DNA from: a virus
IMG/VR virus record: IMGVR_UViG_3300018424_000341
Coordinates: 1 to 20,365 of that record
Length of the DNA stretch: 20,365 nt
Strand: one strand, 5' to 3'
Of this stretch, positions 3,857 to 19,487 are shown in pieces (position 1 is the stretch's first letter; each line of letters starts with the position of its first letter). Below the pieces are notes generated by a model. That model was not told the origin of the DNA, searched no databases, and worked only from the letters and a program-made list of their open reading frames with translations. The position numbers and the translations under genes are program-made.

Positions 3857-5634
3857 TGCTGACTATTAAAAATGTAAGTGCAAAAAACTTTATGAGTATA
3901 GGTAATAATACTCAAGCAGTAAACTTTAATACTGAATCTTTAACATTAGTATTGGGGCATAATTTAGATCTTGGAGGTGATGGTAGTAGAAACGGTACAG
4001 GTAAAACTACAATTATCAACGCACTAAGTTATGCACTATACGGTGATGCTTTAACAAACATTCGCAAAGACAATCTCATAAACAAAACAAATGGTAAAGG
4101 CATGATTGTTTCTGTAGATTTTGAGATCAATGGAATTGAGTATCGTATTGAACGTGGAAGACGACCAAATGTTTTGAGATTTTTTATAAACGGTGCTGAA
4201 AATGCTGATGATGAACAACAAGGCGACAGCAGAGAAACACAAAAAGAAATAGAAAAAATAATTGGCTTCCCTCACAATATGTTCAAGCATTTAATTGCTC
4301 TAAATACATATACTGAACCTTTCCTTAGCATGAAAACAAACGATCAACGTGATATGATCGAGCAACTATTAGGTATTACTGAAATTAGTGCAAAAGCAGA
4401 AGTGCTTAAAGAAAAATTAAAAGAAACCAGAGATAGTATCAAAGAAGAAGAGTTGCGTATTAGTGCTGTTAAAAACAGTAACGAAAGAGTAGGTAAGAAC
4501 ATTGTTGAGATTGAAAATCGTAGCAAACTTTGGACTAAAAACAAACAAGATAAAATCACTGAGCTACAACAAAGTTTAGATGTTTTACAACAAACTGACA
4601 TTGATCAAGAATTAAAAAATCACAAAATTATTACAGAAGTAAACGAAAAATATTTAACAATAAAAGGCTTACAAAGTGAGCAAACTAATTTGCAAAGTAG
4701 TTTACTAAGAAGCGATAACAACTTAGAAACATTACAACTTAATATACAAAAAGCACAAGAAGGTGTTTGCCCTACTTGCGAACAAAGTACTGCACACCTA
4801 GACACACACGAAGCCTACACACAGGACTTGCAAGATAAACTAAAAGTAGAAGAAGAATATAACAGTGAACTAAATAGTAAAGTAAAAACAATTCAGTCAA
4901 AGATTGATGACTTTGGTGAGTTGCCGGAAACACCAATTACTTTTTATAATAATTTAGAAGATGCATTACAGCACAGGCATAATGTTGAAACGTTACAATC
5001 TCAAATAGAAGAAAAAACAAACGAAGTAAATCCATATATTGAACAAATTGATAGTCTAAAAAAGACTGCATTGGAAGAGATAGATTACGAACTTATAAAT
5101 GATTTAACCTTTTTAAAAGAACATCAAGAATTTTTACATAAGTTGCTTACCAGCAAAGACAGTTTTATTCGTAAAAAGATTATAGATCAGAATTTACAAT
5201 ATTTAAACTATAGGTTAAATCATTACTTAGACAAGTTAGGATTACCACATGATGTTAAATTTAACAGTGACTTGTCAGTAGATATTACAGAATACGGTAG
5301 AGATTTAGATTTTGATAACTTGAGCAGAGGTGAACGTAATAGACTTATACTCGGTATGAGTTGGGCATTCAGAGACATTTATGAAAGTTTAAATCAACCA
5401 ATGAATTTGATGTGTATAGACGAACTGGTAGACAGTGGCATGGATACCACTGGTGTTGAAAATGCATTGGCAGTTCTTAAGAAGATGGGTCGAGAGTCCA
5501 AGAAAAATGTGTTCCTTATTTCGCACAAAGAAGAGTTACAAGGTAGAGTAAACAATGTACTATATGTTGTCAAGGAGGGAGGATTTACTTCATATTCGAA
5601 TGATATTGAAATCCTTGACTCGGAGAATGGATGA
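3856..5634 (+). CDS. gp46: Recombination endonuclease subunit gp46 (Rad50/SbcC-like ATPase)
   Basis: A 592-residue SMC/Rad50-type ATPase. Walker A is at 43-51 (GSRNGTGKT), followed by a coiled-coil arm (about 170-300), a zinc hook at C305-P-T-C308, the returning coiled coil (about 310-455), the ABC signature at 489-493 (LSRGE) and Walker B with CIDE at 520-523, then VFLISHKEEL with the switch histidine. Length is close to T4 gp46 (560). It works with gp47 in DNA-end resection. The start overlaps the gp47 stop by one base and the stop overlaps the next gene by ATGA, so 47-46-endonuclease are likely translated as a unit. All ATPase motifs are intact. Confidence 0.95.
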   Translation: MLTIKNVSAKNFMSIGNNTQAVNFNTESLTLVLGHNLDLGGDGSRNGTGKTTIINALSYALYGDALTNIRKDNLINKTNGKGMIVSVDFEINGIEYRIERGRRPNVLRFFINGAENADDEQQGDSRETQKEIEKIIGFPHNMFKHLIALNTYTEPFLSMKTNDQRDMIEQLLGITEISAKAEVLKEKLKETRDSIKEEELRISAVKNSNERVGKNIVEIENRSKLWTKNKQDKITELQQSLDVLQQTDIDQELKNHKIITEVNEKYLTIKGLQSEQTNLQSSLLRSDNNLETLQLNIQKAQEGVCPTCEQSTAHLDTHEAYTQDLQDKLKVEEEYNSELNSKVKTIQSKIDDFGELPETPITFYNNLEDALQHRHNVETLQSQIEEKTNEVNPYIEQIDSLKKTALEEIDYELINDLTFLKEHQEFLHKLLTSKDSFIRKKIIDQNLQYLNYRLNHYLDKLGLPHDVKFNSDLSVDITEYGRDLDFDNLSRGERNRLILGMSWAFRDIYESLNQPMNLMCIDELVDSGMDTTGVENALAVLKKMGRESKKNVFLISHKEELQGRVNNVLYVVKEGGFTSYSNDIEILDSENG

Positions 5635-6059
5635 GTGCTGATTGGACATATAAAGGTAAAAAAATAGATGTTATACCCGAAGAATACGAAGGTTTTGTGT
5701 ACCTTATCACTAATAAGACTAATGGCAAAAAATATATCGGTAAAAAACTTGCTAGGTTCAAAACAACCAAACCACCCTTAAAAGGCAAAAAGAACAAACG
5801 TCGAGGTACCAAAGAAAGCGACTGGCGTACATATTGGGGTAGTAGTGATCATTTGATTGAGGATGTAGCAAATTTAGGTGAGAATAACTTTACCAGAGAA
5901 ATATTAGAGTTATGTACGACTAGGGGTGTAATGAGCTACATAGAAGCAGAATTACAATTCAAACACAAAGTATTACTATCTGATGATTATTACAATGGAA
6001 TTATCAACTGTCGTATAGGTGGTTCAAAAATTCTTAAAGAAAGTTTGAAAGATAGATAA
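5631..6059 (+). CDS. GIY-YIG family endonuclease
   Basis: A 142-residue protein. The GIY-YIG pattern is seen as GFVY (21-24), ten residues, then YIG (35-37) in FVYLITNKTNGKKYIGKK. A very basic segment follows (about 40-60, KTTKPPLKGKKNKRR), then DWRTYWGSS, a central NNFTREIL strand, and the YIEAELQFKH helix carrying the likely catalytic Glu near 105. No separate DNA-binding module follows the domain, unlike the longer Seg homing enzymes. The ATG lies in an ATGA overlap with the gene 46 stop, so it is the last gene of the recombination operon. Whether it acts in recombination or is a captured homing enzyme cannot be told. No intron or interrupted gene is visible beside it. Confidence 0.8.
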   Translation: MSADWTYKGKKIDVIPEEYEGFVYLITNKTNGKKYIGKKLARFKTTKPPLKGKKNKRRGTKESDWRTYWGSSDHLIEDVANLGENNFTREILELCTTRGVMSYIEAELQFKHKVLLSDDYYNGIINCRIGGSKILKESLKDR

Positions 6060-7821: not shown

Positions 7822-8119
7822 GATATTACAAGAAGTAACTGATTGGGGCGACTACCCAGTTAAAAATGGAATTTATCATGTCAACAGTGCTGGACAACTT
7901 GTTCAGCACAATGACGTTGTATTTAAAAACCCGATTAAGCAATTCAGCAAGTCTTACAGGAAGTTTGTTAAAATAGGCGAACGCCCTGAAGAGTTTAGCA
8001 AAAATGTTATTGTAGTCAATGGTTCAAAAGGCAATACTTACACAATTGAAGATGGTAAGTGTAGTTGCCCTGGTTTTACTTTTAGGGGAGATTGTAAGCA
8101 TGTTAAAGAACATTGTTAG
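7814..8119 (+). CDS. Small SWIM-type zinc-finger protein
   Basis: About 101 residues from a GTG at 7814, chosen because AGGTGG (7803-7808) sits 5 bases upstream; another in-frame GTG at 7805 would overlap that site. The C-terminus is a SWIM-like zinc motif, C83-x-C85-x8-C94-x-H96 (GKCSCPGFTFRGDCKH), preceded by NTYTIEDGK, the usual beta-hairpin entry of SWIM domains. The N-terminal part (VTDWGDYPVKNGIYHVNSAGQLV) looks like a small beta domain, followed by a basic helix (KQFSKSYRKFVK). SWIM fingers bind DNA or partner proteins. The start overlaps the previous stop and its end overlaps the lipoprotein start by 20 bases, so the three genes are coupled. The molecular role is unknown. Confidence 0.75.
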   Translation: MIEILQEVTDWGDYPVKNGIYHVNSAGQLVQHNDVVFKNPIKQFSKSYRKFVKIGERPEEFSKNVIVVNGSKGNTYTIEDGKCSCPGFTFRGDCKHVKEHC

Positions 8120-10442
8120 TTTATTTTTAGTATTGTCTGTGATTGGCTGTGCAAGTGGCGGGGGTTCAGCAGGTATTGCAACAACCACGGTTGCACCTCC
8201 TCCTACCACAACCACTACCAATACTGACAAACGATATCAATTTGATGCATTTTCAGATCAGTACACTGAAGCAACCAGCAAACTAGGATATAACAAAGTC
8301 ACCTATCAAGTAGGCGAGTTTAATAATACTCAGTGGGTAAATGGCAAATACACTGTGGAAGATTTTTCATTTTTGCAGGTTGTTATAGACGGCAGTCACG
8401 GTGGTAAAGATCAAAATGATCCAAACAGTGACGAGTATTCAGAACCAGGTAATTGGATGACCAATGCATCTGTGGTTATAGAAAATGATATCAATCAAGA
8501 CGGCCACAGCGATTTTGTGATTTACATGCAGACGTTTGGTGATAGAAATACATTACCGGGTATGCGAATGTTACAATTTGTAAATGACGGGGAAGGACAT
8601 TTCAAATTAGACTGTAGTGTGTTTGAAAACAATGTGTGTCCTATTGTGTTTGGGGAAGGTTCTGTAATGAATAATCTTGGTTGGTGGCACAACGAAGAAG
8701 CACCTGTACAAGAATACAATATGGGCATAGCACATCAATACGACTTGAACGGCGATGGCAACAAAGACATTTTTAATGTTAGTCAGTTGTGGCTTACTGA
8801 TAGTGGAAAGTTTGTTGACTCCCATACCAATCTACCTGATTTTATGTTTGAAAACTTAAATCCTGATGGTGTTGACGTAGGTATTTTTGTGCATGATCAT
8901 GCAGTCGGTGATCTCAATGGTGACGGATTTAATGATATTTTTATGCCTAATACCACACCAGTGTATTCACAAAATAATGGCTACATGTTTTTTATGCTAA
9001 ACGACGGCAAAGGAAACTTTAAGAACACCAGTTTTAAAGTTGGTCATGCCGGCCATTTTGCAACGTCTACTACTATTGGAGATTTTGACAATGACGGATA
9101 CGGTGATATTGTTTTGGGTTGGAGTAACAATGCATACAAGAATTTAGGTGGCAACAGTGTTGGTGGAATTTACTGGGGTAATAGTGACTCTGATTATACC
9201 AAAGACTACACAGCACTGCCTGCAGGGTATTACGACCAGAACATAGCATTTGATGTACAGTCTATGGATTTTAATAACGATGGATTGTTAGACTTAGTTT
9301 TTGCAAACACTAATGCTGATCCTTACTATCAAGGACATGTATTACAACTAATAGAAAATCTTGGTAATAGACAGTTTAGCCACTTCAAGTTTTTTGACGA
9401 AGGTGCAGAAACTAGTAACCTTGGAGTTGGGCATATTTATATACTAGACTTTGATCATGATGGCAACAATGATATTTTTGTAGGCCCTTACACTGATGCA
9501 TATGTTTTAAAAAATAACGGTGATGGCACATTTGTAAAATACAATCAATTTGCTGTACCCGAAAATAATCCAGATATGTCATTGCTGTTTCCAGTAGAAG
9601 TAGATGGCAAGTACGAATACGATTTTATTGGAATGGATATTTTGTCCATGAGTGAAACACAAACTGTTACAAACTTTTTTATCAGTTTAGATCCCCCGGC
9701 ACAATTACAAGAAATGCATGATGAATTGTTTGACAAATCTATAAATCATGTTCAATCAATATTTGAAAACAAGACTATGTTTCATAACATTAAAAACACT
9801 TCGCTGTCAGATAGTGTATTTTTTGTAAACAATGAACAAAATAATATTGCAGGGTACTCTCATAACTTTGAAAACTTTGGTATTACTTTTGGACAAACAG
9901 ATGATGGCGGCTTGTTATATTTAGACAGACAGCATGACGGATATCATTATGGTATTGGTTATTTTAACAACAGTGTAGACTCATTGAATGTTGGTAAATG
10001 GTATGGTACTGGTACAGCAACAATTGATTTTGAGACTATAAATGCATTTGCTGAAACATTTATACCTTTAAACTCAAATATTTTTATAACATCGGGTGTT
10101 GCATTGTTTAACACAAAAGTGAAAGGCTTTACTGAACAAAATAGTCAATACAATATTTCTGTACAAGATTTTACAATGAACGATTTAGAATTGTACACTG
10201 ATATTACAGGATACAAAAGTACTAAATTTGGAACCACAATGTTAAGTCTAGGACTTAGTTCATATTACAGTTTGGGCAACACTGACATTGTGTGGGACGG
10301 TGGTTTAGTTTCTAAGTTTAAAGAATCTGAGCAAGTTGCTAGAGCAACTCTTACACATACATACAATATTTTTTATGCTAAGGCAACGTTCAGCTCGTTT
10401 GATAGTGACACGTTTGAAATAGGATTTAATTTAAGTTTTTAA
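8100..10442 (+). CDS. FG-GAP/VCBS-repeat lipoprotein with outer-membrane-like C-terminus
   Basis: A 780-residue protein. The ATG at 8100 is chosen (the frame is open from 8019) because it opens a lipoprotein signal: K3, hydrophobic core, lipobox VIGC with lipidated C17, then ASGGG; Ala at +2 favours the outer membrane. GGGGAG lies about 9 bases upstream. A T/P-rich linker follows (about 27-42). Six calcium-binding type DxNxDGxxD motifs begin near residues 130, 215, 271, 328, 390 and 450, spaced mostly 56-62 apart, as in FG-GAP/VCBS beta-propellers. The last 180 residues have alternating polar/hydrophobic strands and end in Phe (FEIGFNLSF), the hallmark of outer-membrane beta-barrels. It is last in the early operon and not next to virion genes on its strand. 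Role unknown: host-surface change or superinfection block is inferred. Its stop abuts the convergent gene 51-like stop with no gap. Confidence 0.85.
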   Translation: MLKNIVSLFLVLSVIGCASGGGSAGIATTTVAPPPTTTTTNTDKRYQFDAFSDQYTEATSKLGYNKVTYQVGEFNNTQWVNGKYTVEDFSFLQVVIDGSHGGKDQNDPNSDEYSEPGNWMTNASVVIENDINQDGHSDFVIYMQTFGDRNTLPGMRMLQFVNDGEGHFKLDCSVFENNVCPIVFGEGSVMNNLGWWHNEEAPVQEYNMGIAHQYDLNGDGNKDIFNVSQLWLTDSGKFVDSHTNLPDFMFENLNPDGVDVGIFVHDHAVGDLNGDGFNDIFMPNTTPVYSQNNGYMFFMLNDGKGNFKNTSFKVGHAGHFATSTTIGDFDNDGYGDIVLGWSNNAYKNLGGNSVGGIYWGNSDSDYTKDYTALPAGYYDQNIAFDVQSMDFNNDGLLDLVFANTNADPYYQGHVLQLIENLGNRQFSHFKFFDEGAETSNLGVGHIYILDFDHDGNNDIFVGPYTDAYVLKNNGDGTFVKYNQFAVPENNPDMSLLFPVEVDGKYEYDFIGMDILSMSETQTVTNFFISLDPPAQLQEMHDELFDKSINHVQSIFENKTMFHNIKNTSLSDSVFFVNNEQNNIAGYSHNFENFGITFGQTDDGGLLYLDRQHDGYHYGIGYFNNSVDSLNVGKWYGTGTATIDFETINAFAETFIPLNSNIFITSGVALFNTKVKGFTEQNSQYNISVQDFTMNDLELYTDITGYKSTKFGTTMLSLGLSSYYSLGNTDIVWDGGLVSKFKESEQVARATLTHTYNIFYAKATFSSFDSDTFEIGFNLSF

Positions 10443-10679
10443 TTACATCCAGTCGCCGCTTTTATCACCACTCTTTGCTTTATTATATCTGTTTAAGGTA
10501 TTGATTAAAAGCTCTCTTTCCACAGGACTAAGGTGCCAAGCCTCTGTATAGGTAACGGCACCTTCACTGTATATAGCCAACTCTGCTACTTGTTTTAGAA
10601 TCTGTTTTTGATCTTTATCGAGTTTACCTAAGTAACCAGTAATTTCTTCTGGTTCGGCTGACCCTAGGAACCCGTGAAA
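10443..10679 (-). CDS. gp51: gp51-like frame, made as a -1 frameshift extension of gp26
   Basis: In the -1 frame relative to gene 26, the reverse strand codes for 78 residues from the slip site to the TAA at 10445-10443 (FHGFLGSAEPEEITGYLGKL..., then EGAVTYTEAWHLSPVERELLINTLNRYN, ending SGDWM). The latter matches what I recall of gp51, the T4 baseplate-hub assembly factor encoded right after 26. There is no ATG, GTG or TTG between the in-frame TGA at 10694-10692 and residue 34 of this stretch, so ordinary initiation cannot make the whole conserved protein. The frame opens exactly at the gene 26 heptamer A-AAT-TTT. A gp26-gp51 fusion by frameshifting is the simplest reading; initiation at an ATT codon is the less likely alternative. 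Confidence 0.75.
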   Translation of the reverse strand, partial: FHGFLGSAEPEEITGYLGKLDKDQKQILKQVAELAIYSEGAVTYTEAWHLSPVERELLINTLNRYNKAKSGDKSGDWM

Positions 10680-10685
10680 AAATTT
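10651..10685 (-). promoter_or_regulatory. -1 frameshift signal: slippery heptamer A-AAT-TTT plus downstream stem
   Basis: The reverse strand reads AAATTTT at 10685-10679 in the phase X-XXY-YYZ of gene 26. Six bases later a stem can form: GGTTC (10672-10668) with GAACC (10655-10651), loop of 12. An alternative stem, AACCAG with CTGGTT further on, competes for the same AACC. The gene 26 stop (TAG 10666-10664) falls in the loop. Confidence 0.65.
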
Positions 10686-11530
10686 ACAGGATCAAAGTTG
10701 ATAGGTGCTGTAAATACTTGATCACAAGTTTCACTACTGCACTCTATTTGCACTTCTTGTTTAACTCCTTTAGAGTTGACAGAATTTACAAAGGTCTCAA
10801 TTTCTTTTCCTGTTTTGCTGTCTGTGTTTTCTAAAAATTCTCTAATAGTGGGTTTGTCTTTGACGACCATTGGTTGACCGTCTTCGCCATCAAATGTTAC
10901 TGATGATATACACTCAATAAGTAATTCAAAGTTCAAGTCTGCTAAAGTTACAAAACTGGTGTTGAATGCTTTAAGACGTTCCATATCATCTTTCATTTCT
11001 GAAATGCTTTGCATACTTCTTGTACTTTGAAAACTTGCTATTCCTGCTTTAATAGTATTTTGGTATGTAAAAGGTAATGCTTTTATAACAAGACCGTTAG
11101 CAAGGGTTTTTTCATATTCTTTATCTAATTCTTCCATGCTCATCAAAGATGATTCTACACTGATTACAACGTCTGTTACATTTTCGCATGCAGGACATGT
11201 TGCACTAACATCTACTTCATCGCCACCACTTGCTCCTCTGATAGCAATCAAAAGTGCATCAACGTCTGCACTGTATAATTGTTTAGGGTGCTTGATTTGT
11301 GGTACACATGATTTTATCAATGCTGACACTGCTTCGCCGTTTAATAGTGCATCAGGATTTTTTAGCAATAATTCATCCTTTGTGGTCATAGGATAAATTG
11401 CTAATTCTTCGCCTACAGCATCTTGATCCATGACATTTTCGTCGTAAAACTTGCCGCCACTTGGAATTTTTGTATAAAGTTTGGGCGATCTAAAATACGC
11501 ACTCAATGGATTCTGGTTATTTTTGCTCAT
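10664..11530 (-). CDS. gp26: Baseplate hub assembly protein gp26-like (T4 baseplate family), with frameshift site
   Basis: A 288-residue protein, start at the ATG 11530 with AGGAGT upstream. It opens with SAYFRSPKLYTKIPSGGKFYD and IYPMTTKDELLLKNPDALLNGEAV, the signature of the T4 gp26 family in marine phages. A four-Cys pair probably binds zinc: CPAC near 111-114 in the first half and CSSETC near 270-275 at the end. T4 gp26 is 208 residues, so this is a longer form. The last codons before TAG contain A-AAT-TTT, where a -1 slip continues into the gp51-like frame. This parallels the tail-assembly chaperone pairs (lambda G/GT) encoded before tape measure genes, and the tape measure gene does start 120 bases away, divergently. 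Confidence 0.85.
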   Translation of the reverse strand: MSKNNQNPLSAYFRSPKLYTKIPSGGKFYDENVMDQDAVGEELAIYPMTTKDELLLKNPDALLNGEAVSALIKSCVPQIKHPKQLYSADVDALLIAIRGASGGDEVDVSATCPACENVTDVVISVESSLMSMEELDKEYEKTLANGLVIKALPFTYQNTIKAGIASFQSTRSMQSISEMKDDMERLKAFNTSFVTLADLNFELLIECISSVTFDGEDGQPMVVKDKPTIREFLENTDSKTGKEIETFVNSVNSKGVKQEVQIECSSETCDQVFTAPINFDPVNFFTGS

Positions 11531-11649: not shown

Positions 11650-14600
11650 ATGATTGAATTCCAGATAGACGGCCAAAACTATAGGTTCCCTGAATGGGCA
11701 ACAGAGTCTACACAAGTGCAACTTCGTGATCTTATGGCTGAACTGGCTAAAAGGAATGGTGTCGGTAATAATGCATTAAACAGAATTCTAAAAGCACAAG
11801 AAGAAGCGTTAGACGAATTAAAAGATCAAGCAAAAGGCGACAAGAAATCCGAAGACGACAAGAAAAAAGCAGATGACAAACTGATTAAAAAACTTGACGA
11901 AATGGTAGAAGGCTTAGACGAAGTCAGAGATGCTACACAAGAAATCAAAGTAGAAGTACCAAAATCATTTAGAGACCAAATTGCAGACACATTAGAACGT
12001 GATGGCGAGTATCTAGGGGGTGCCTTGTTGGGTGCCGCAGGCACAGTTGTTAAGTTTGGTGGTGTAATAGGTGGTACACTTTTAACTGGTGCCGGATTTG
12101 TTGGCAACAAGTTGATGGAAGCCGGCTCTACTGTAAATGAATTAGTTCAAAGTGGTATAGGTTTTAACACAACATTCTCTGAAATGGGCATGGGTGTTGT
12201 TGAAGCCACAGGACACCTAGGGGCATTAGGTTTAGGATTTGGTGAAGCGGCTGAATTGATGAAACGCAGTTCAGCAGTAATTGCAACACAAGGATTTAAA
12301 CGTTTTGAGCAAACCATGCAATTTGCCGCTGATACTTCAGAAGAACTTGGTATGAGTTTTGATGAGAGCATGAACACATTTGGTGAGGCATTGACTAGAC
12401 GCCAACGTATGTTAAATATTGGCAGTTTAGATCAAGGTAGATTAAATGCACAGATTGCCAAAACAACCAAGGTACAAACAGCATACGCCACAGCATTGGG
12501 TGTTAGCACAGAAACGTTACAAGCATTTGTTGACGGGTTATTAAACAACAATGGATTACTAACATCTTCTATTTTGAGATTCAGCAACACAGTTAGAGCA
12601 GACTTAGTTGCCGGCATAGAAGTTTTTGCTAGTGGCTTAGCCGCAATGGGCGGCAAATCGGGTGAAGACATTGCCGCGGCATTTTTAGAAGCCGGTTCAG
12701 CAGGCGCAATAGGACTTAGCGATGCGGCAGTAGGATTAGTTACAGCATTGCCTAATTTGGCTGGACCAATGAACCAGTTTATCAAAGGCATTCAAAGCGG
12801 CACAATGAATCAAGACGAAGCCAATGATATGGTTCAAGGCCTGTCAAAAAACTTAGGAAATCTCAGTAACACTGAAAAAGAAAGAATTAGATTACTAGCA
12901 AGAACAGGCGACCAATCTGCACAGATGTTAGCAAATGCTATTGCACAATTTGAGCAATCAGAATCAAAAATCAAAGAAATAAACAAAGCATTAGGCACAG
13001 GCTTTGACATGGACATGGTACAAAAAGGCAGAAACGAATTTGCAAAAACCATGGCACAAATAAGCGGCGGTGCCGAAAATGCATTCTTTAGTTTGTTTGC
13101 AGACCCAGAAATTACCAAAGCACTCACAGATGGATTTAAAGAAATATTGGGTGTGTTTGGTATGGGGGTTGACGACACAGGCAAAGTTGCTCAAGATATG
13201 GGTAAAACTGTTAAAAAGTTTGTGCCTATAGTTAAAAATTTAGTAACAGGTGCAGTAACATTAGTTAAAGATTTATTAGAATATTTTAAAGGCTTCATGG
13301 GAGACGACGGATTTGACTTCTCGGGTCTCATTGGCGATTTAATAGGCAAAGCATTAGGCGCCGCAGTCAAAGGACTGCTCTTTGCAATTCCTAGTTTTGC
13401 TCTTGCACTATTTGGTCTTGCAGTTGCAAAAACAGCAGTAACAAACTTTTTAATGCCACAAATACAATCTTTTACTAGTGCGTTGTTCAGTAAAGGTTCA
13501 GAGCTTGCTAAAAAAGTAGGTGAAACTGCACTTGGATTCGCCAAGAGCATGTTTGACAGCAAAGGCGGAAAAGCCACACAAGCATTTATGGGCAAAGCCG
13601 CAGGATTTATCAAAGACAAAGCAGGCGGCATATCCGAAAAAATACAAAGCAGTCCTATAGGGCAAAAAGTTGCAGACAAATTAGGCAGTTTTCAAAAAGA
13701 CGGTGCCAAGATGACCGAAAAACTTCAAGGGTCTATGACCAAAGGAGGTTCATCTGGAGGATTCTTAAAAAGTATTGCAGATGGTGTTGCCAAGTTTGGC
13801 GATACCAAAGTTGTTAAAGGTGCCGCCAGTTTAACATTATTGGCAGGTGCAGTTACACTCACAGCAATAGGACTTAAAAAGTTTAACGATGTAGACTTTA
13901 TGTCTGTAGTTAAAGGCACTGTTGCAATGGCAGGCTTGGCCACTATGGCACAATTCTTAGGCAAAGGTTCAACAGCAATGGTCAAAGGTGCCGCGGCAAT
14001 ATTATTGTTAGGCACAGCAGTAGTACCAATGGCATTTGGTTTAAGCCTAATGAAAGATGTTGGCCTAGATACCATAGGTATTATGGCAGCCGGATTAGTA
14101 ACATTAGGTATTGCGGCTGCCGGATTAGGTTTAGCATTACCATTTATACTGTCAGGCGCCGCCGCTATAGGTGCGTTAGGATTAGCCCTCATACCGTTTG
14201 GAATAGCACTTAATTTAGTTTCTTTAGCATTACCAACATTTACTGAAAGCATGGATGCTATGTCAAAGATAGATGGTGGTGGTTTATTAAATGCGGCAGG
14301 TGGTATGTTAGCAATCGGTGGCGCAATGGCACTGATGGCTCCGCTATTACCGTTTATGTTGATAGGCACTTTAGCGGCACCAGCCATTATTGCAATGGCA
14401 TCAGCATTAAAATCGTTCAATGATGTTGACATGTTTAATCTCTTGTTAGCAGGAGAAGCCATGAAGTCTATCGGCTCGGGCATGTCTACTTTAAGTGGCG
14501 GCTCGTTGATGAGCAGTCTCAAAGACGGTATAGGGTCACTGTTTGGAGCAGACAGCCCAATAGACAAAATCAAGAAATTTGCAGATGGATTAAGTGAAAT

Positions 14601-15675
14601 AGATGTTCATCCGCTTTTAGATGTTTCATACGGATTAGAAAGCATAGTTGACAGCAGTCAACGATTACCTCAAGCCGCCGCCGGAATGCTGATGCTTGCA
14701 GAACTTTCTAAGCCATTTGTAGACGGTATGTCTCGATTAAGCAGATCACTAGATAAAATGGGGCAAGATCCATTTGAGAAGTTTTCAACACTAGAACAAC
14801 ATGCAGAATCAATGAACATATTCAGAGGAAGTATCGACGGTGTTGTAACAGGTATTGGCAATATTCAAAGTTCACTTGACACCATAGATGGTGATTACAT
14901 ATCTGATCAATTCTATGTAATAGGTGACGGCATTGAGTACATGAATGAACAGCTCAGTAACATAAAGATGGGCGACATGTTAAAACTTGGCGCAATGAAA
15001 CTGTTTGGACCTAGCAAAGAAGAAAAACAAGCCGAAGAGGAAAAAGAAGCAATTAAAAACGTAGCCTATGAGAAATTACACGGAGGTTTCGATAACAAGC
15101 CCGGTCTATATGACTTAATGAACAAATTCACAATGACAGAAGGCAAGTCAGCGTGGAAAGCCGGAACTGAAGCAGAAACTCAAATGGCAACACACCTGTC
15201 GTCTCTTGGTGCCGCAGGCATTGATGTAGACACAGAAGCGTTAAGAGGGGACAAAGGCGGCGCCGCCTTGGCCAAAGAAATGACTAACATCACAAACCAA
15301 TTGCAAAAGCAAATTGATTTGTACACTATGGCATTTGAGACAGGTAAAGCATCACCTGCACTTATTGGAGAACAAAAATCTAATGCAGATATCAAATTAC
15401 CAGTACCATTACCAGCACAAGCACAGGTTCGTGGTTCAAATGCCACAGTTGATCCTGCAAGCATTCCGGTTATTGGTGCAAGACCCGAAGACCAAAACCA
15501 ACAACAACAACCTCAACCTACAACGCCAACAACAGCAGAAAATCAAAAAGAAACACAAGACGGCACTGTTATGATGAGTCAACAAGAAATGTTAGCAGAA
15601 CTAATTAGACTGCAAGCAGAAAATAACAGATTAGTCAAAAAACAAATCAAAGCAACAGGTGAATTAGACCTTTAA
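11650..15675 (+). CDS. Tape measure protein (tail-length ruler)
   Basis: A 1341-residue protein. It has the tape-measure build: a charged helical N-terminus (about 20-120, with runs of K, D and E), a glycine/alanine-rich hydrophobic stretch (130-170), a long helical part (190-520), then very hydrophobic Gly/Ala/Leu blocks (about 570-610 and 705-960) with repeated FNDVD / KxxxAMAGL-like units, a mixed C-terminal third, a Q/P/T-rich linker (about 1278-1300) and a final coiled-coil-like helix. It sits next to the gp26/51 chaperone pair. T4 gp29 is 590 residues; this is more than twice that, and at about 1.5 angstrom per residue would suit a tail near 200 nm if the whole length is ruler. The ribosome site is weak (AAGGA, far upstream). 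Another large structural protein cannot be excluded. Confidence 0.75.
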   Translation: MIEFQIDGQNYRFPEWATESTQVQLRDLMAELAKRNGVGNNALNRILKAQEEALDELKDQAKGDKKSEDDKKKADDKLIKKLDEMVEGLDEVRDATQEIKVEVPKSFRDQIADTLERDGEYLGGALLGAAGTVVKFGGVIGGTLLTGAGFVGNKLMEAGSTVNELVQSGIGFNTTFSEMGMGVVEATGHLGALGLGFGEAAELMKRSSAVIATQGFKRFEQTMQFAADTSEELGMSFDESMNTFGEALTRRQRMLNIGSLDQGRLNAQIAKTTKVQTAYATALGVSTETLQAFVDGLLNNNGLLTSSILRFSNTVRADLVAGIEVFASGLAAMGGKSGEDIAAAFLEAGSAGAIGLSDAAVGLVTALPNLAGPMNQFIKGIQSGTMNQDEANDMVQGLSKNLGNLSNTEKERIRLLARTGDQSAQMLANAIAQFEQSESKIKEINKALGTGFDMDMVQKGRNEFAKTMAQISGGAENAFFSLFADPEITKALTDGFKEILGVFGMGVDDTGKVAQDMGKTVKKFVPIVKNLVTGAVTLVKDLLEYFKGFMGDDGFDFSGLIGDLIGKALGAAVKGLLFAIPSFALALFGLAVAKTAVTNFLMPQIQSFTSALFSKGSELAKKVGETALGFAKSMFDSKGGKATQAFMGKAAGFIKDKAGGISEKIQSSPIGQKVADKLGSFQKDGAKMTEKLQGSMTKGGSSGGFLKSIADGVAKFGDTKVVKGAASLTLLAGAVTLTAIGLKKFNDVDFMSVVKGTVAMAGLATMAQFLGKGSTAMVKGAAAILLLGTAVVPMAFGLSLMKDVGLDTIGIMAAGLVTLGIAAAGLGLALPFILSGAAAIGALGLALIPFGIALNLVSLALPTFTESMDAMSKIDGGGLLNAAGGMLAIGGAMALMAPLLPFMLIGTLAAPAIIAMASALKSFNDVDMFNLLLAGEAMKSIGSGMSTLSGGSLMSSLKDGIGSLFGADSPIDKIKKFADGLSEIDVHPLLDVSYGLESIVDSSQRLPQAAAGMLMLAELSKPFVDGMSRLSRSLDKMGQDPFEKFSTLEQHAESMNIFRGSIDGVVTGIGNIQSSLDTIDGDYISDQFYVIGDGIEYMNEQLSNIKMGDMLKLGAMKLFGPSKEEKQAEEEKEAIKNVAYEKLHGGFDNKPGLYDLMNKFTMTEGKSAWKAGTEAETQMATHLSSLGAAGIDVDTEALRGDKGGAALAKEMTNITNQLQKQIDLYTMAFETGKASPALIGEQKSNADIKLPVPLPAQAQVRGSNATVDPASIPVIGARPEDQNQQQQPQPTTPTTAENQKETQDGTVMMSQQEMLAELIRLQAENNRLVKKQIKATGELDL

Positions 15676-18686: not shown

Positions 18687-19487
18687 ATGTCAGATCGCAG
18701 TAAATTAGAACAAGTTCTAGAACTTCTACTTGCGGAAGATAACGAGCGTGCCGAAGAGCTACTTCACGAATATGTCGTCGAAACTGCTCGAGCAGAGTAC
18801 GAGCGTATCTTAGATGAAGATGAAGTAGTTAGTGAAGAATCTGAAGAAGAAGCAGTTGAAGAAGCAGAAGAATCAGAAGAAGAAGCAGTCGAAGAGGCTG
18901 AAGAATCTGAAGAAGAGGCTGTTGAAGAAGATGCTGTTGACGAAGTTGTAGATTTCGCAGACCCAGAGCAAGATTTTGTATCCGACGTAGAAGAAGCAGA
19001 CGATGATATCGAAAGCGACGAAGTCGGTGAAGAAGAAGGCGAAGGCGAAGACGAAGATCTTGAAGACAAAGTTGATTCTTTAGAAGATGAACTTGAAGAT
19101 TTAAGAGCTGAATTCGAAAAATTATTAGCAGACGAAGACGGTGATGACGGCGAAGAAGCAGAAATGGATGCAGACATGGACATGGAAATGGACATGGAAC
19201 CTGAAATGGAAGAAGAATCAGTCGAATATGACCTAGACGAAGAAGTTGTTGAAGAAGAAGACGAAGATGTTGTTGAAGAAGCAACTAAATTGTCTGATAA
19301 CGTTGCAGAGCCAAAAGGCGAAGTACACAACGATAAGTCACCTTTGTCAAGCAAGCCAAAACCAACTGTAGTTAGCGGCGCTGGTCAACCAGTTAAAGCA
19401 AACGACGGTAGCGAAGGCGTTAAAGGCGAATCAGCAAAAGACCACACACCATCAGATAATATCAAAGTAGAGCCTAAAACGGCTTAA
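18687..19487 (+). CDS. Extremely acidic repeat protein, probable prohead core component
   Basis: A 266-residue protein with a clear start (AGGAG 6 bases before ATG). Residues 1-45 form a normal helical domain (KLEQVLELLLAEDNERAEELLHEYVVETARAEYERIL). Residues 50-82 are three copies of an 11-residue repeat EESEEEAVEEA; 83-205 continue as a D/E-rich low-complexity region with a likely coiled coil (DLEDKVDSLEDELEDLRAEFEKLL) and a DMDMEMDME run. The last 65 residues are a less acidic, K/P/S-rich tail. In T4, acidic core proteins gp67 and gp68 lie between 20 and 21, fill the prohead scaffold and are cleaved by gp21; position and charge support that role. No direct homology to gp68 was recognised. 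Confidence 0.7.
   Translation: MSDRSKLEQVLELLLAEDNERAEELLHEYVVETARAEYERILDEDEVVSEESEEEAVEEAEESEEEAVEEAEESEEEAVEEDAVDEVVDFADPEQDFVSDVEEADDDIESDEVGEEEGEGEDEDLEDKVDSLEDELEDLRAEFEKLLADEDGDDGEEAEMDADMDMEMDMEPEMEEESVEYDLDEEVVEEEDEDVVEEATKLSDNVAEPKGEVHNDKSPLSSKPKPTVVSGAGQPVKANDGSEGVKGESAKDHTPSDNIKVEPKTA
18834..18932 (+). repeat. Three tandem 33-bp repeats inside the acidic protein gene
   Basis: Units 18834-18866, 18867-18899 and 18900-18932 each encode EESEEEAVEEA or EESEEEAVEED, with synonymous differences between units (tct/tca, gca/gct). Repeat number may vary between relatives. Confidence 0.85.

Follow-up and report, generated by a model that had tools for sequence, protein, structure and literature searches.

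In the window, by which we mean the whole stretch of 20,365 nucleotides of viral DNA analysed here, genes 26 and 51 in all likelihood form one translational unit for a tail assembly chaperone (TAC), joined by a −1 ribosomal frameshift. The frameshift itself is very probable, and a role of the products as chaperones is probable. The coordinates of the features are listed in Table 1.

Table 1. Features of the gene 26/51 locus and its neighbour (positions within the window)
Feature	Position	Strand	Remarks
Probable tape measure protein, 1341-aa ORF	11650..15675	+	phrog_4372 tail length tape measure, E 5e-4
Gene 26-like ORF, short form (TAC-N)	10664..11530	−	288 aa; two CxxC-type pairs; PF12322, phrog_150
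TGA stop of the −1 frame, ahead of the slip site	10692..10694	−	read from sequence
Heptamer A_AAT_TTT	10679..10685	−	slip phase; present across almost the whole clade of the window
Heptamer T_TTT_TTC	10676..10682	−	slip phase; kept in jumbo phages, cyanophages, KVP40, Aeh1, phiW-14 and L023 (595-kb uncultured phage)
−1 frame extension, gp51-like (TAC-C)	10443..10676	−	77 residues and TAA; no ATG/GTG/TTG before the conserved part
TAG, 0-frame stop	10664..10666	−	9 nt past T_TTT_TTC; spacing constant across the window's clade
Candidate stimulatory stem-loop	10627..10668	−	outer stem 10668-10663/10632-10627; inner hairpin 10654-10649/10639-10634

Reading frames and protein domains at the junction

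The product of gene 26 matched PF12322 (T4_baseplate, E 2.2e-19) and phrog_150 (baseplate hub, E 2e-23), and the domain of the gp26/gp51 family is thus present in the short form. Its AlphaFold model (pLDDT 85) matched predicted T4-like baseplate hub assembly proteins with E values down to 2e-24, while searches of solved structures by sequence and by fold gave no PDB match with E ≤ 0.001. The 3′ end of gene 26 reads GTA AAT TTT TTC ACG GGT TCC TAG in the 0 frame from position 10687. In the −1 frame the closing TGA is followed by TCC TGT AAA TTT TTT CAC GGG TTC CTA GGG, and the frame continues to a TAA at 10445-10443. The first-pass annotation of this DNA had described the gp51-like frame as start-less and closed by this TGA, which direct reading confirmed. 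It had also predicted a fusion of 365 residues, but the actual length is 362, with 285 residues read in the 0 frame and the remaining 77 in the −1 frame. The two heptamers overlap, and a slip at either of them would lead to the identical protein. Among 6402 codon positions in the genes of the window we counted 34 in-phase heptamers of the type X_XXY_YYZ, and the pair at the junction are the only two that open a −1 frame of at least 40 codons beyond the 0-frame stop.

For the 77-residue extension, AlphaFold predicted four helices (pLDDT 88). A profile of short gp51 proteins from cyanophages and KVP40 matched the extension in hhalign (E 4.6e-5, probability 69), which identifies the gp51 C-terminal domain of the gp26/gp51 family in this part; T4 gp51 alone gave a weak profile match. 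No significant match was obtained with the TAC-C fragment alone in Pfam and PHROG. A fold search ranked two annotated TACs weakly (the TAC of Microbacterium phage BonaeVitae had E 0.69), and a second fold search (VIA) returned generic helical matches only, with a best Z of 5.7.

The two frames, the conserved heptamers and selection acting in both frames are seen in the sequence; slippage, its efficiency and the chaperone role are inferred. In this reading most ribosomes would end at the TAG, yielding TAC-N (gp26), the short form of 288 residues. Some of the ribosomes would slip back by one base at AAATTTTTTC, where the Phe tRNAs, or the Asn and Phe tRNAs, would re-pair in the −1 frame, and would continue to position 10443 to give the 362-residue long form (TAC-NC) with a gp51-type helical domain. 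By analogy to lambda gpG and gpGT, coating of the tape measure protein would fall to the short form, whereas tail tube subunits would be brought in by the long form.

Conservation of the heptamers and selection on both frames

We gathered 108 loci from IMG/VR relatives, annotated phages and classical T4-like genomes, the last by a PF12322 search. Two of them are T4 genes 26 and 51; the other 106 (74 distinct) are non-T4 loci and include IMG/VR relatives, jumbo phages, cyanophages, KVP40, Aeh1 and a 595-kb phage. All 106 non-T4 loci had an X_XXY_YYZ heptamer in phase close to the 3′ end of gene 26, together with a −1 frame that passes the 0-frame stop and is open for 51-101 codons past the heptamer. 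In the 595-kb uncultured phage T_TTT_TTC sits 63 nt before the stop. For 73 distinct loci the heptamer types were T_TTT_TTC only (31), both heptamers (26), A_AAT_TTT only (13) and T_TTT_TTT (3); the 13 loci with A_AAT_TTT as sole heptamer belong to a second clade. In one member of the window's clade (L056) the sequence is GTA ACT TTT TTC, by which A_AAT_TTT is lost and T_TTT_TTC is retained. T_TTT_TTC is the more widely conserved heptamer. Originally A_AAT_TTT had been named as the slip site; it does lie in slip phase, but the overlapping T_TTT_TTC is kept more widely.

Past the stop of gene 26, differences at codon positions 1, 2 and 3 of the −1 frame amounted to 0.32, 0.24 and 0.55, which indicates that the extension is under protein-level selection. 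No stops occurred in the −1 frame downstream of the gene 26 stop, whereas the two other frames had 4.2 and 6.0. Among 23 distinct members of the window's clade, the final nine codons of gene 26 showed a synonymous divergence of 0.30 of expectation, while the same scan away from the gene end had a minimum of 0.63 and a median of 1.01. The codons GTA, TTT and TTC were invariant in 23 of 23 members. The low synonymous divergence together with the codon pattern of the −1 frame shows that both frames are coding and that the nucleotide sequence of the junction itself is under constraint.

Start codons in the −1 frame

To find possible starts, ATG, GTG and TTG were scanned in the −1 frame from the upstream stop to 45 nt past the start of the heptamer. 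No such codon was found in 43 of 73 distinct loci, among them the window's own and those of almost its entire clade. A possible start near the slip site was found in the remaining 30, often overlapping or adjoining the stop of gene 26 as in KVP40 and 121Q. Whether the heptamer and the start-less frame are conserved in relatives had been posed as a check; conservation holds throughout for the heptamer, and for the start-less frame in those 43 loci. An ordinary gene 51 start in relatives had been named as evidence against frameshifting. Such evidence is present in part, in the 30 loci with a possible start, all of which carry the heptamer. The near-cognate starts AUU, AUA and AUC were rejected, as they lie at least 14 codons in, inside the conserved part.

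These data bear on an alternative in which the end of gene 26 serves for reinitiation or coupled translation of an independent, short gene 51, and the heptamer is a side effect of two conserved Phe residues in a row. The ATG in the −1 frame beside the gene 26 stop of KVP40, 121Q, Phosso and Atu_ph07 would suit such a gene, as would the annotations of P-SSM2, S-PM2 and KVP40 that list a separate short gp51. We regard it as improbable, since the 43 loci, the window's clade among them, have no ATG, GTG or TTG and the near-cognate codons lie inside the conserved part. Moreover, the Phe-Phe codons are fixed as TTT TTC in 23 of 23 members of the window's clade, compared to a pairwise Phe codon identity of about 67% elsewhere in the gene. 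For the relatives that do bear a start, separate translation of a short gp51 or reinitiation is possible.

RNA structure 3′ of the slip site

A stimulatory RNA structure at the junction is likely, although its exact form is unproven. The candidate two-tier stem-loop begins 7 nt past T_TTT_TTC. In 14 close relatives 94.6% of its cells were paired and 3 pairs showed compensatory change, and its covariation score was reached by 0 of 500 shuffles. The stem GGTTC/GAACC (10672-10668 with 10655-10651) taken as a possible stem in the first-pass annotation fared less well: it was paired in 92.9%, showed no covariation and is broken in two loci (L045 and L050), whereas the two-tier stem-loop covaries modestly. 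RNAalifold, on the other hand, favours an extended form of the GGTTC/GAACC stem over the two-tier stem-loop. Over 73 loci the folding z just 3′ of the site had a mean of −1.69, against values between −0.6 and +0.1 for seven control offsets. S-PM2 and the A_AAT_TTT clade show this signal strongly; taken alone, the window folds no better here than shuffled sequence (z 0.0).

The second clade (L077-L079, L081-L084, L098-L100, L105, L106 and L110), which has A_AAT_TTT only, carries a stable and partly covarying stem AGGTC.../...GACCT. This stem begins a few bases past the heptamer and has z values of about −3 to −7.

The same protein would also arise by transcriptional slippage on the T run, with one U added by the polymerase and no contribution of the ribosome. 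Most loci do have a run of six T, and one added T leads to the same product. However, in the second clade, with five T only (AAATTTTTCA), A_AAT_TTT still stands in ribosomal phase and a stable stem lies 3′ of it, while a polymerase-slippage site would need neither codon phase nor a 3′ stem in the mRNA. We regard this origin of the fusion as very improbable. That gene 51 has decayed, or that the arrangement is an assembly error, as the frame without start codon might suggest, is refuted by conservation, with the same frame relation in 106 loci including reference genomes and purifying selection on the −1 frame, and can practically be dismissed. Ribosomal frameshifting at the heptamers is the reading that we follow below.

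The neighbouring tape measure gene and gene order

A very long tape measure gene had been reported next door to gene 26. The 1341-aa ORF is indeed adjacent, but it is transcribed divergently from the opposite strand, and its identification as a tape measure gene is weak (Table 1); a Pfam search with this ORF gave no match. In KVP40 and S-PM2 the gene order is 26, 51, large tail gene. The large gene that follows 26/51 in S-PM2 matched a tape measure family (E 5e-21); for the large genes of KVP40 and P-SSM2 at the same place no tape measure match was found. By BLAST, the large ORF of the window had no match to the S-PM2 gene and a marginal match to a gene of Phosso (E 0.005).

Some further observations were made on the surrounding genes. 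The S-PM2 gene after 26/51, S-PM2p209 (L121:2857-6357), matched Phage_lysozyme2 in addition to the tape measure family, and its N-terminal part matched ADP-ribosyltransferase models (PF01129, E 1e-5). An 807-aa ORF (8019-10442), which contains FG-GAP repeats and begins like a lipoprotein, ends a single base short of the gene 51 frame's TAA, which lies on the other strand. A SegE-type GIY-YIG endonuclease gene (5631-6059; PF19835, E 1e-35) directly follows a 592-aa ORF that resembles gp46. Between the portal gene, which lies upstream, and a protease-like ORF there is a very acidic, repetitive ORF (18687-19487) with EEAVEEAEESE repeats.

Comparison with T4, lambda and other phages

T4 has two copies of PF12322, one in gene 26 (E 8e-65) and one in the first 200 residues of gene 51 (E 1.8e-53), while the other eight T4-like genomes have one copy each. 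Against PHROG, T4 gp51 matched phrog_150 almost from end to end; its C-terminus matched phrog_634 and aligns with the TAC-C motif. Phrog_634 (baseplate hub assembly catalyst) was also matched by the −1 extensions of P-SSM2 and KVP40. A single ORF of T4, that of gp51, combines the gp26 domain with the extension, showing that the fusion is a real protein architecture. Unlike in the window, the short and the long form of T4 are encoded by two genes on opposite strands, and its gene 26 lacks the heptamer. The view that genes 26 and 51 are joined by a −1 frameshift as a lambda G/GT-like pair, with gp26/gp51 as its T4-type version, had already been put forward for this DNA; it is supported by the conservation of the locus, the synonymous constraint and the architecture of T4 gp51.

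As in lambda G/GT and the tail genes of other dsDNA phages (Xu, Hendrix, Duda 2004), a short protein and its probable −1 frameshifted extension are encoded beside a putative tape measure gene, and the lambda order G-T-H is matched by the order 26-51-large tail gene of KVP40 and S-PM2. The heptamer differs from that of lambda, however, and the putative tape measure gene of the window is divergent and not downstream. Between lambda-type chaperones and the proteins of the window, we found no sequence match and no convincing fold match.

In cyanophages gp51 was reported to have about 20% of its usual length, and to be missing in Aeh1 (Sullivan et al. 2010, PMC3037559). The 20%-length gp51 of cyanophages and vibriophages corresponds to the −1 extension downstream of gene 26, although the "reduced" gp51 is described there as a shortened separate gene. 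In Aeh1 (L035, L120; NC_005260.1 near 119000) we found T_TTT_TTC and an unannotated 58-codon −1 extension just downstream of gene 26. The frameshift arrangement therefore explains both the "reduced" gp51 of cyanophages and the "missing" gp51 of Aeh1.

Vandenendeviridae and Andersonviridae are another phage lineage with a similar TAC locus. In Pseudomonas phage Adele (PMC12846349) a conserved poly-T −1 site lies at the 3′ end of TAC-N, with the −1 frame open in all genomes, but the motif is GTTTTT.

Discussion

The abstract of the 2022 paper by Vladimirov and colleagues is said to state that frameshifting is conserved in several T4-like groups and that T4 uses genes 26 and 51 separately. This work (Vladimirov, Gautam and Davidson, Virology 2022) identified the TAC genes of T4-like phages. 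PMC10885494 cites it for T4-like phages in which a short TAC gene and a long, fused one take the place of frameshifting. PMC12846349 cites it for poly-T −1 frameshift signals in T4-like TAC-N genes. By these citing accounts the T4-like phages studied there resemble the window in having genes 26/51 as TAC-N and TAC-NC and in their poly-T −1 signals. The first-pass annotation had considered frameshifting in T4-like phages as not yet described, which does not agree with these two citations; judged by them, it appears to have been published already in 2022. The general statement on frameshifting is probably contained in that paper, while the turnover of heptamers and the stem-loops may not be. What our analysis would add to the printed principle is its breadth, the correction of the heptamer and a candidate RNA signal.

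We put forward, as an evenly balanced proposal, that the frameshifted gp26/51 is the general T4-like state and the two-gene layout of T4 the exception, with the signal rebuilt by lineage from T_TTT_TTC, A_AAT_TTT or both and from lineage-specific covarying 3′ stem-loops; this would account for the gp51 described as reduced in cyanophages or missing in Aeh1. Where gene 51 is annotated as short or missing in a T4-related phage, a frameshifted chaperone is in most cases probably made, and many public annotations would then share one error. For studies of evolution, the locus also allows two solutions for one function to be compared, frameshifting and two separate genes.
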